From the NCBI GenBank assembly GCA_017429345.1, contig JAFRPB010000115.1, positions 1-64,000 of the forward strand: a DNA stretch of 64,000 nucleotides, read 5' to 3'. The notes under the pieces were generated by a model. That model was not told the origin of the DNA. It did not search any database and worked only from the letters and a program-made list of their open reading frames with translations. Source of the DNA: Clostridia bacterium. GTDB taxonomy: Bacteria > Bacillota > Clostridia > Oscillospirales > Acutalibacteraceae. Both the position numbers and the translations under genes were made by a program. Positions 3,231 to 42,243 of this stretch are shown here, piece after piece; position 1 is the first letter of the stretch; every line of letters begins with the position of its first letter.

Positions 3231-3505
3231 AATTGACAATTGACAATGGATAATGGACAATTTCGGAAAAGCGCTTCGCGCCTTTTTATTATAAATTCCG
3301 TAATGGTACTTCCGTGCAGCAAATTAACAATGATATTACCCATAATCATCGATAAGCAATTATACTCACATCTACAATAGGGTACGGAGGCGCGGATCTC
3401 CGATGGAGATCTCTGTGGCTTTCGCCACAGAAGCGCCGACCGAACCGGAAGGAGAGAAAAAAAGCCGTCCTTAATTATCCATTATCCATTGTCCATTATC
3501 CATTG
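3231..3505. repeat. Variable-arm intergenic element, copy A
   Basis: Inverted arms made of TTGACAATGGATAATGG-type words (left 3231-3263, right 3473-3505) surround a core of about 210 nt. The core begins GGAAAAGCGCTTCGCGCC followed by TTTTTATTA, and near its far end reads GGGTACGGAGGCGCGGATCT. The same core landmarks occur at 41900-42243 and, inverted, at 30193-30397, but with different arm words. The copy lies between the TPP riboswitch terminator and the first thi gene, so it is part of the thi leader transcript. Confidence 0.8.
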
Positions 3506-3510
3506 AAAAA

Positions 3511-3547
3511 GAAGACCCCGCGGATAATCCGCGGGGGTCGTCTTTTT
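3511..3547 (-). terminator. Expression-platform terminator of the TPP riboswitch
   Basis: On the minus strand GACCCC-C-GCGGAT pairs with ATCCGC-GGGGTC and is followed by TTCTTTTTC, a strong intrinsic terminator directly downstream of the aptamer. TPP binding would be expected to favour it and stop thi transcription. Confidence 0.85.
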
Positions 3548-3624
3548 CCTACGCCGGCATTATCCGTATCAGGTTCGAGGGTTCCGCCCGAAGGCGATCT
3601 CAGCCGGAGAACCAGCACCCCTTT
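3548..3624 (-). ncRNA. TPP (THI-box) riboswitch aptamer
   Basis: On the minus strand the conserved blocks appear in order: AAAGGGGTGCT, CTGAGA, ACCCT, GAACCTGATACGGATAATGCC and GGCGTAGG. These are the diagnostic TPP aptamer sequences. It sits between a consensus promoter and a terminator, 5' to the thiamine-binding protein and ThiXYZ genes, so it is a transcriptional off-switch responding to thiamine pyrophosphate. Confidence 0.95.
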
Positions 3625-3638
3625 GTTATTTCAGGATA

Positions 3639-3667
3639 ATGATAGCACAGGTTCTCTTTTTTGTCAA
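3639..3667 (-). promoter_or_regulatory. Sigma-A promoter of the thi operon
   Basis: TTGACA (3667-3662), 17-nt spacer, TATCAT (3644-3639), immediately upstream of the TPP aptamer. Confidence 0.85.
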
Positions 3668-3694
3668 GAAAAACGCATTACAGAAAAAGATCCA

Positions 3695-39755: not shown

Positions 39756-39787
39756 CAGAAGAAAGAGCCCCTGATCAACAGACGGCT

Positions 39788-39828
39788 CCGGCGGCGCGGA
39801 AAGATTTCCGCGCCGCCGGTTTTGTTGT
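39788..39828 (+). terminator. Terminator downstream of the cotH cluster
   Basis: CCGGCGGCGCGGAAA pairs with TTTCCGCGCCGCCGG and is followed by TTTTGTTGT. Confidence 0.8.
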
Positions 39829-39972
39829 CTGCACTCGCATGTATGTTTTTTCACACTTTTGCAACAATATTGTCACATTCCGCAGGCGGAGAGCCTATAT
39901 AATAGAATCAGATCATTGCGGGGTCATTTTAACAGGATCCTGACAGGATCCCGCGCAGAAAGGAGCTATTCT

Positions 39973-41856
39973 ATGAAAAAGATCATTTCCGTTCTTCTCG
40001 CGTGCGTGATGTGCCTGTCGGCGCTGACGCTCGCCGCCGGAGCCGAGGACGCGGAGGAGCCTCCCACCGTGGTCGTTTCTGCGAACGCCTCCGCCGTGGA
40101 ATCCTACGCGGCGCGGACGCTGCAGGGGTATCTCGCCCGGATCACCGGGACGGACGTTCCGCTCGTCACCGACGCGGACGCGTCGGGGGAAAACGAGATC
40201 GTCGTCGGCGCGACTTCGCGGCGGGCGATCGACGTCTCCGGTCTGCCGGACGGCGGCTACCGCATTATCAGCGAAAACGGCACGGTCTATATCGCGGGCA
40301 GCGGTTCCCGCGGCAACATCTACGGCGTGTTCGGCTTCCTTGAGAAATACTGCGGCTGTCACTGGTACGCCGCGGATGAATTCGTGATCCCCGAGGGCGC
40401 GGTCATCGTGCCCGACGGCGTCGATTATACCTATAAACCCTTCTTCGAATACACCGAGACCGACTGGCTCAGCCCGCGCAATACGGAATACTCCCTTGCG
40501 AACGGTCTGAACGGCAACAGCTACCGCTGGCTCTCCCCCGAGCAGGGCGGCAACGTCTGCTATATTTCGGGCTTCTGCCACACGCTGACCACGCAGTTCT
40601 GCGCGGAAGGGACGTATTTTGCGGAGCATCCCGAATATTACGCCCTTGTTGACGGCGAGCGTCAGCCAACGCAGCTTTGTCTTACGAATCCCGATGTGCT
40701 GCAGATCGTGACGAACGAAGTGCTCTCGCTTGCCGCGAGCCGTTACGATCCCTCGCAGGCGGTGCAGATCATCTCGCTCACGCAGGACGACAATCAGAAA
40801 TACTGCACCTGCGACAGATGCAAGGCTCTTGCCGCGGAATGCGGCGGCGCGCAGTCCGGCGTCATGCTGACCTTTATCAACAACGTCGCCCGCGCGGTCA
40901 AGGCGGCGGGTTACGACAATATCGCGATCGACACCTTCGCGTATCAGTACACCCGCAAGGCGCCGAAAAACGTCGTGCCCGACGATAACGTGATCGTCCG
41001 CCTGTGCTCCATCGAGTGCTGCTTCGGGCACGCGCTCGCCGATCCCGCCTGCGCGCAGAACGTCGATTTCATGAACGACCTCTCCGACTGGGGCAAGATC
41101 TGCAGCCGCATCTACGTCTGGGACTACGCGACCAACTACAGCCAGACGCTCAATCCCTTCGCGGATTTCGAGGTGCTGCAGAAGAATATGCAGACCTTCT
41201 ATGAAAACGGCGTCAAGGGCATGTACGTCGAGGGCGCGTATTACGTCGGCGCGGTCAACGGCGAGTTCGCCGACCTGCGCAGCTACATGATTTCGAAATT
41301 CATGCAGGATCCCTACTGCGATTACGACGAGGTCGTCAACGGCTTCCTCGCGGCGTATTACGGCGGCGGCTGGCAGAGCATCCGCGAATTCATCGACCTG
41401 ATCTGCGACAAATGCGTCACAAAGACCCGTCATATGGGCATCTATCAGGCGCCGCAGGAATCCCTGCCCGCGATGACGCTGAAGGATATTTCGGACGCCG
41501 ACGAAATGTGGCTGAACGCAAAGGAGAACGCGGGCAGCGAAAAGGCGCTCGCGCGCGTGGAGCGCAGCGAGATCTGCTGGCGCTTCTGGAAAGCGAACAA
41601 CAATAAGGGCGAATTCGCGTTCACGAAAGGCTTTGTCAAAGTCCTCGACGCGCGCGAGCAGCTTTACAACGACCTGGTCGAAAACGGCGTCACGATCCTC
41701 GGCGAGGGCGGCAACCGCGCCCTGACGACCGAGCGTCAGCAGTATCTGCTCACGCCGCCGCGCGAGTGGGACGATGAGCGCATCGGCAACGTCTTCGTGC
41801 GCTGGCTCGCCCCGCTGCTGCTGTGGATGTATCAGATGTGTAAGGACAGAGCGTAA
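39973..41856 (+). CDS. Secreted DUF4838-domain protein, glycoside hydrolase-like
   Basis: The 627-residue protein has a signal peptide (1-24) and an N-terminal GH-N-like domain (VVVSANASAVESYAARTLQG; SGSRGNIYGVFGFLEKYCGC HW when read continuously). The catalytic-type DUF4838 barrel follows, with ISLTQDDNQKYCTCDRCKAL and ERSEICWRFWKA. This family is found with glycan-degrading loci, and its N-terminal fold matches the alpha-glucuronidase/hexosaminidase N-domain; the substrate is unknown. The CxCxxC cluster is typical of the family. The ATG at 39973 follows AAAGGAGCT. A TATAAT near 39897 may belong to its promoter. The stop codon lies in the stem of a 20-bp hairpin. Confidence 0.8.
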   Translation: MKKIISVLLACVMCLSALTLAAGAEDAEEPPTVVVSANASAVESYAARTLQGYLARITGTDVPLVTDADASGENEIVVGATSRRAIDVSGLPDGGYRIISENGTVYIAGSGSRGNIYGVFGFLEKYCGCHWYAADEFVIPEGAVIVPDGVDYTYKPFFEYTETDWLSPRNTEYSLANGLNGNSYRWLSPEQGGNVCYISGFCHTLTTQFCAEGTYFAEHPEYYALVDGERQPTQLCLTNPDVLQIVTNEVLSLAASRYDPSQAVQIISLTQDDNQKYCTCDRCKALAAECGGAQSGVMLTFINNVARAVKAAGYDNIAIDTFAYQYTRKAPKNVVPDDNVIVRLCSIECCFGHALADPACAQNVDFMNDLSDWGKICSRIYVWDYATNYSQTLNPFADFEVLQKNMQTFYENGVKGMYVEGAYYVGAVNGEFADLRSYMISKFMQDPYCDYDEVVNGFLAAYYGGGWQSIREFIDLICDKCVTKTRHMGIYQAPQESLPAMTLKDISDADEMWLNAKENAGSEKALARVERSEICWRFWKANNNKGEFAFTKGFVKVLDAREQLYNDLVENGVTILGEGGNRALTTERQQYLLTPPREWDDERIGNVFVRWLAPLLLWMYQMCKDRA

Positions 41857-41895
41857 ATATTGAATGAACGGCAAGGCCGTTCATTCAATATTTAC
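41853..41895. terminator. 20-bp perfect hairpin at the DUF4838 stop codon
   Basis: GTAAATATTGAATGAACGGC (41853-41872) pairs perfectly with its complement at 41876-41895 around an AAG loop. The TAA stop of the upstream gene is inside the first arm. No T-run follows, so termination efficiency is uncertain. Confidence 0.7.
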
Positions 41896-41899
41896 CAAT

Positions 41900-42243
41900 T
41901 CGGAATTCGGAATTCGGAATTCGGAATTTTGGAAAAGCGCTTCGCGCCTTTTTATTAAAACAACCAGACCCGCCAGCCAAATCGTAGATTTGTGGCGGGA
42001 ATCCCGGAACCTTGTTACTCGCTTTGCTTGTAAAAGATTCGTCAAGGGAATTGTTCTTGTTAAATTAACGATGATGTTACTGATAGAATTACCTGTTTAA
42101 ATTATACTAAAATCTATAATTGGGGTACGGGGGCGCGGATCTCCGGTGGAGATCTCTGCCGCAGGCAGAAACGCCGACCGAGCCGGCAGGCGAGAAGTAA
42201 CCCCGTCATCAATTCCGCATTCAGCATTCCGAATTCCGAATTA
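41900..42243. repeat. Variable-arm intergenic element, copy B
   Basis: Inverted arms of AATTCGG words (left 41900-41932; right 42211-42243, ATTCCGAATTCCGAATTA) flank a core of about 280 nt. The core shares with copy A the blocks GGAAAAGCGCTTCGCGCC plus TTTTTATTA and GGGTACGGGGGCGCGGATCT plus CCGGTGGAGATCTCTG. No gene is visible in 41897-42289. Confidence 0.85.

Follow-up and report, generated by a model that had tools for sequence, protein, structure and literature searches.

Intergenic elements with inverted heptamer arms and a structured module in a Clostridia draft genome

Introduction

Intergenic arrays of heptamers have been reported from several phyla, and their origin is not agreed. 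Among transposons, the IS607 family has ends that are unrelated between elements; several transposase dimers bind to short direct motifs in these ends, and insertion produces no target duplication (PMC6188088). Here we describe a family of intergenic elements bounded by inverted arrays of heptamers in a 64,000-nt stretch of a gut Clostridia bacterium (contig JAFRPB010000115.1, positions 1 to 64,000; G000:C83:1-64000), referred to below as the window. The source genome, G000, is a 3.78-Mb draft in 251 contigs and is 90% complete. The elements are putatively non-autonomous, about 200–350 bp in length, with two inverted arms of four or so heptamers each.

A first-pass annotation of the window had remarked that the arm words differ from copy to copy while the two arms of one copy pair with each other. 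The pattern is real. Small mobile elements falling into subfamilies would account for it, an explanation of an ordinary kind, with unusual ends. With a probability of about 0.68, we consider that the elements are subfamilies resembling miniature inverted-repeat transposable elements (MITEs), each inheriting its own heptad ends, and that mixed copies result from nesting and recombination.

Results

Three copies with a common core end, each bounded by complementary inverted arrays of words, had been reported from the window, and both observations were confirmed. The core family was present at 3265–3291 (+), 30336–30362 (−) and 41931–41957 (+), against 0 cores in 100 shuffles, and the arms formed inverted repeats with 84% (I1, copy 1), 89% (I3, copy 2) and 91% (I8, copy 3) complementarity. 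Read on both strands, each copy followed the same plan of a heptad array, a CGGAAAAGCGCtnCGCGCCTTTTTATTA hairpin (TGG in copy 3), a core, a GGGTAnGG hairpin closing with CC(G)TC or CTTC, and an inverse heptad array, with perfect palindromes adjoining two of them:

3231–3262, plus strand: copy 1 left arm, heptads AATTGAC, AATTGAC, AATGGAT, AATGGAC
3265–3291, plus strand: copy 1 left hairpin GGAAAAGCGC..GCGCCTTTTTATTA, terminator-like
3389–3457, plus strand: copy 1 structured module of 64–70 nt, within the right hairpin
3474–3504, plus strand: copy 1 right arm, inverse AATGGAY heptads
30195–30219, minus strand: copy 2 right arm, AATGAAA/AGTGAAA words (element on the minus strand)
30336–30362, minus strand: copy 2 left hairpin GGAAAAGCGC..GCGCCTTTTTATTA
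30366–30394, minus strand: copy 2 left arm, AATGAAA words
30398–30443, no strand: perfect palindrome (I13), a hairpin flank adjoining copy 2
41853–41895, no strand: perfect palindrome (I21), adjoining the copy 3 left arm
41897–41928, plus strand: copy 3 left arm, AATTCGG heptads
41931–41957, plus strand: copy 3 left hairpin
42132–42195, plus strand: copy 3 structured module of 64–70 nt, within the right hairpin
42211–42242, plus strand: copy 3 right arm, inverse AATTCGG/AATGCGG heptads

The repeat unit was 7 bases, so that the words first quoted for these arms cover two or more units each. Words did differ among the three copies, as had been stated, but not entirely, as an A at position 1 and a T at position 3 were common to arm classes A, B, C, D, and H. 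The right landmark was not common to the three copies, reading AGGGTACGG in copy 1, GGGGTAAGG in copy 2 and GGGGTACGG in copy 3; GGCGCGGA occurred only in copies 1 and 3, where it marks the start of a separate structured insert that copy 2 does not carry. At gathering score, Rfam gave a single match in the window, a TPP riboswitch next to copy 1 (3529–3631, minus strand).

Agreement between the left and right arms was analyzed in copies with both ends from G000 and two relatives, G001 and G003. Heptad periodicity on at least one side retained 81 of 105 candidates, corresponding to 70 distinct right ends when the innermost left end was taken (second left matches of L029 and L086 were spurious); 59 copies were classified on both sides, and 11 with an arm in the class “other” were set aside. 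The two arms belonged to the same class in 49 of the 59 copies, compared to a mean of 13.1 and a maximum of 25 in shuffles, and to different classes in the remaining 10. Within classes, the arms of the 49 concordant copies were no more similar to each other than to the arms of other copies (23.84 vs. 24.44 ± 0.24, p = 0.998) and were, if anything, less alike (lower tail 0.003), with the same result for G000 alone (23.24 vs. 23.86, p = 0.994). On simulated data, the power of the test was 28, 85, and 98% when 10, 20, and 30% of copies had undergone arm copying. The suggestion that one arm was copied onto the other or templated locally was thus not supported, and the expectation that words would be conserved within but not between copies largely held for arm class and failed for the variants within a class, which did not covary at the level of the copy. 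Since this copy-level matching was missing, left–right agreement is mainly a property of the subfamily, in which both arms are inherited together.

Arrays of period 7 exceeded chance. A sample of G000 covering 451,481 bp (the window and stretches of contigs 1–40) contained 149 of them against 1–16 for each of periods 5, 6, and 8–11, and 385,840 bp of G003 contained 42 against 1–16 for other periods. Neighboring arrays with matching words in G000 were inverted in 26 cases and direct in 8, out of 89 pairs. Placed in the phase ARTKNNN, words from classes A, B, C, D, and H had A at position 1 in 378 of 379 cases and T at position 3 in all 379, words that agreed with their class consensus at fewer than 5 of 7 letters being left out of the count. 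Every one of the five classes varied at position 4, four of them at position 7, two at position 2, and some at position 5 or 6. Classes E and F, as well as the arms of other families, fitted this frame less well by reading. Other cores with heptad arms in G000 had nearly constant words, namely AGGCATT (core of 28–36 bp), ATCGGGG (76–80 bp) and AGTCCCG (85–91 bp).

Further repeats were noted in the window. A short-core element with AGGCATT/AATGCCT heptad arms was located at 47785–47863, for which blastn returned dozens of related places in G000, and a repeat with ATCGGGG heptad arms at 1985–2185, with many similar places in both G000 and G001. Inverted arms of a 9-base word (GCGTAACGA) enclosed a core of roughly 260–300 bp at 47379–47763, the same plan with another period, and a direct heptad array of AGTGAAA/TGTGAAA words stood alone at 39661–39747 with no inverted partner in view. 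In G003, locus L093 had a related core, and its arms consisted of longer units containing small palindromes (GTGAAATCGCGCTTCGCGCG) instead of heptads. At 30146–30189, 30398–30443, 41853–41895, and 47864–47906 lay palindromes that were perfect or nearly so, many of them of the form TAAATTCTGATTTATCG..CGATAAATCAGAATTTA, with stems that vary yet stay paired, and such palindromes adjoined many elements.

The elements were dispersed throughout the genome. With at most 3 mismatches, the left anchor gave 44 matches in G000 against 3 for the reversed pattern, 42 of the 44 being element ends by reading, while the right anchor gave 40 matches genome-wide against 0 in the control and revealed a second left hairpin, GGAAGTCGC..GCGACTTGATTATA, together with further arm words. 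With at most one mismatch, the left anchor was present in three of seven genomes of the genus. A scan for the exact left anchor in one genome each of 84,980 species, which may omit records of the source genome or its nearest kin, returned 27 stretches, from the metagenome-assembled genomes (MAGs) RUG11941 and RGIG2774 and from one Desulfobacterales locus that is a plain terminator by reading.

Empty sites, which the first-pass annotation had proposed to look for in sister strains, were found in relatives. At the site of copy 1, the element was present in G001, present without its core in G003, and absent from G002, G004, G005, and G006, and the site of copy 3 was empty in G003 with a gap of ∼63 bp. 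The possibility that a core had fallen into a pre-existing array was rejected, because the two arms have opposite orientations and no array is present at the empty sites of relatives. Many dispersed non-autonomous copies, inverted terminal arms with 81–92% complementarity and empty sites in relatives were thus all found, as in MITEs. The site of copy 2 was occupied by different arm elements, with GGGTGCT words in G001 and GGCATTA words in G003 (where the contig ends within the element), palindromes lying next to them here too, and different elements were also present in a relative at the sites of L001, L005, and L029. Elements kept in a relative had altered repeat numbers (L018), or drifted words and a lost right arm (L024). 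Across three species, the arms of copy 1 differed mainly in the final heptad letters, and the two arms of its orthologs in G001 and G003 drifted apart; in the G001 ortholog, a new word absent from G000, AATGGAA, was present in both arms.

Many copies lay beside hairpins. Of 70 copies, 24 had a hairpin of 6 bp or more ending no further than 10 bp from the left arm (in 4, this was the element’s own outer hairpin in a stack) compared to 1 of 65 control windows located 240–300 bp away, and the corresponding values for the right arm were 25 of 66 and 0 of 62. Based on plain stop-to-stop open reading frames (ORFs), not gene calls, 83 of 114 flanking ORF ends were 3′ ends, and among the 59 of 70 copies with enough flank, 29 lay between convergent, 23 between tandem, and 3 between divergent ORFs. 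Stacked left ends were found in 8 of the 70 copies, and in L068 by reading, with two or three such ends following one another, most of which differed in arm class. The inner left end began directly where the T-tract or TTATA of the outer left end stopped.

The structured module of 64–70 nt fitted a three-way junction with a short hairpin. In an alignment of 16 of the 20 modules, near-duplicates being left out, 98.0% of cells were paired. Both sides had changed in 13 of 23 pairs, and the covariation value of 0.410 compared to 0.130 in shuffled alignments, none of the 500 shuffles reaching it, and to no more than 0.082 after the structure was slid, although the structure was derived from the same 16 sequences that scored it, which favors it. 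Besides the two copies in the window, loci carrying the module included L025, L222, L245, L286, and L294, and the contexts read were the right-hairpin loops of the elements described here, other hairpins, tandem arrays, and the module itself. At L286 (same genus) and L294 (another genus), the module lay in frame and at the same place in relaxase ORFs, at residues 119–141 and 129–151, respectively, the best Relaxase stretch starting at residues 143 and 153.

A model of the module gave 43 matches in G000. Among 120 genomes sampled from the family it matched 20, in 19 of 119 genera. Plasmid and phage collections held no near match, and IMG/VR held six stretches with the 22-base tail of the module. 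No known RNA family matched the module at gathering score in the window, and matches to microRNA, viral, and other Rfam models below gathering score over copy 3 were taken for chance. A pseudoknot between the GGT loop and ACC, judged by eye and unscored, was not retained; the ACC shows no variation, and the pairing is lost in some loops. No description of the module was present among the top-ranked open-access literature matches, and nothing relevant to structured mobile inserts or Oscillospiraceae repeats was present among the matches listed.

Candidate movers were sought in G000. The only Y1 transposase match was RAYT-like (NF047646, 54.9 bits for a cut-off of 80). This single gene (L249, 1180–1455 and 1456–1953, minus strand, G000:C228) adjoined tandem 60-bp repeats with GTAG-tagged GGAACG..CGTTCC hairpins, which are likely a REP family of their own, and it was rejected as the mover because its flanks carried these other repeats (GTAGGGAACG..CGTTCC). 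The sole RVT_1 match in the genome was a reverse transcriptase-like protein of 459 amino acids (L250, 1171–2550, plus strand, G000:C47), with NCBIfam matches to group II, DRT, and retron models that were all below curated cut-offs, and it was rejected as a writer of heptads given that no array occurred in the 1300 bases read upstream. A small serine TnpA of the IS607 type was also rejected, as the five Resolvase matches in this 90% complete draft were all in frames of 485–639 amino acids. Group II intron ribozyme domains gave no match in the window at Rfam gathering score.

Discussion

These results suggest the following course of events. Inside its arms, an element has on the left a terminator-like hairpin that ends in TTTTTATTATA (or GACTTGATTATA), followed by a variable core and, on the right, by a GGGTACGGG..CCCGTC hairpin. 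Insertion would take place next to hairpins at the 3′ ends of genes. The arm word would be a character of the subfamily, both arms being passed on together when a subfamily amplifies, and words would drift afterwards, almost never at heptad positions 1 and 3. Movement would probably occur in trans, by a recombinase binding several heptads per end. New elements may also land where the T-tract of a left hairpin already in place has just ended. We infer that stacks result from insertion beside the element’s own terminator-like hairpin followed by recombination between repeated cores, and that mixed-arm copies arise from the same nesting, subsequently collapsed by recombination.

Several observations weigh against this reading. 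All arm groups together changed 30 times on the core tree, for a minimum of 6 and a shuffled mean of 41.5, which exceeds the expectation for clean subfamilies, although the tree was built from only 102 of 601 alignment columns; it agrees loosely with inheritance by subfamily. In G003, matching neighboring arrays were inverted in three cases and direct in four, of 17 pairs, and 87 of the 149 arrays in G000 and 30 of the 42 in G003 had no inverted partner within 450 bp; heptad arrays therefore also exist alone. The target duplications suggested as a check were not above chance, at least 5 shared bases being found in 14 of 59 unstacked copies against 12.4 expected, with element borders fuzzy enough for a very short duplication to escape detection. 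No transposase with element ends was found among the families searched, i.e., Y1, RVT_1, and Resolvase only, DDE transposases not being searched. Finally, mixed copies may partly be misassemblies, the genomes being draft MAGs.

Could the cores rather than the ends be mobile, with gene conversion or insertion placing the same core and hairpins inside different pairs of heptad arms? This is unlikely, even though the core tree does not keep arm groups together and a core ending GGCGNGTCGC..GCACCGA occurs with AATTCGG arms in L001, AGTTCGG/AGAGCGG arms in L108 and AATGAAA-type arms in L112. The words of five classes share one frame and so look related by descent, and the left hairpin type mostly tracks arm class, GGAAAAGCGC with A, B, C, and H and GGAAGTCGC with D and E, with exceptions such as L034.

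We regard as far less probable that gene conversion or template switching between the two arms of a copy homogenizes them. Class concordance, the appearance of AATGGAA in both arms of the G001 ortholog, and the perfect palindromes with varied stems beside many copies would be consistent with it, but own arms matched no better than those of other copies within a class, ten copies were discordant, the arms drifted separately at orthologous sites, and copying above about 20% is disfavored by the test. Selection for pairing as an RNA stem, which would make the elements regulatory or terminator RNAs instead of mobile DNA, appears just as improbable: empty sites and turnover between species speak against it, and there was no copy-level compensation between arms, though G–U pairs would mask part of it, despite a terminator-like left hairpin and a position beside hairpins and gene 3′ ends that would suit such RNAs.

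The element subfamilies described here have heptamer arrays with a common A.T skeleton as their inverted ends, which makes end recognition testable. A more tentative proposal, rather doubtful as a whole, is that a 7-bp phased A.T skeleton (∼ARTKNNN) is what is recognized, so that one machinery could move elements differing in their free letters and elements could stay mobile while new words evolve in both arms, and that the module would be a second, RNA- or single-stranded DNA-structured mobile element invading hairpin loops, itself, and genes in frame. With covariation and matches in a sixth of the sampled family genomes, the module looks like a structured mobile element without a match to a described family, and it may outweigh the heptad elements as a find.

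Comparison with known systems

Short, repeated, and intergenic, with inverted terminal arms and empty sites in relatives, the elements resemble prokaryotic MITEs (PMC10969869). They differ from these in arms that are heptad arrays with a word specific to the subfamily, in the lack of a detected target duplication, and in the lack of a parent transposase among the families searched. The likeness to the IS607 family (PMC6188088), the closest in mode of action among the published systems compared, concerns at most the way of working and is an analogy, not membership, as no such TnpA was found, the arms here are clearly inverted, and their units are 7 bp in contrast to the 9-bp motifs of IS1535. 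The heptamer repeats of Beggiatoaceae and Cyanobacteria (TAACTGA) are likewise intergenic tandem heptamers with related words, but they are described as direct repeats, with one inverted case, and not as the arms of elements (PMC4679880).

A RAYT-like gene and abundant hairpin repeats in G000 recall REPINs and RAYTs. The flanks of that gene, however, carry GTAG-tagged hairpin repeats and not heptad-arm elements, and the two do not have equal ends. For the module, tiny structured mobile repeats of 21–27 nt, the small dispersed repeats of Nostoc, were reportedly described by Elhai in 2008 in heptamer arrays and minitransposons, with compensatory changes. Compared to these cyanobacterial repeats, the module is 64–70 nt in length and resides in hairpin loops. 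The Rickettsia palindromic elements are also small elements in frame inside protein genes; at about 150 bp (PMC10969869), they differ from the module, which is 64–70 nt, forms a covarying three-way junction, and occurs in many genera, in hairpin loops, and in itself.

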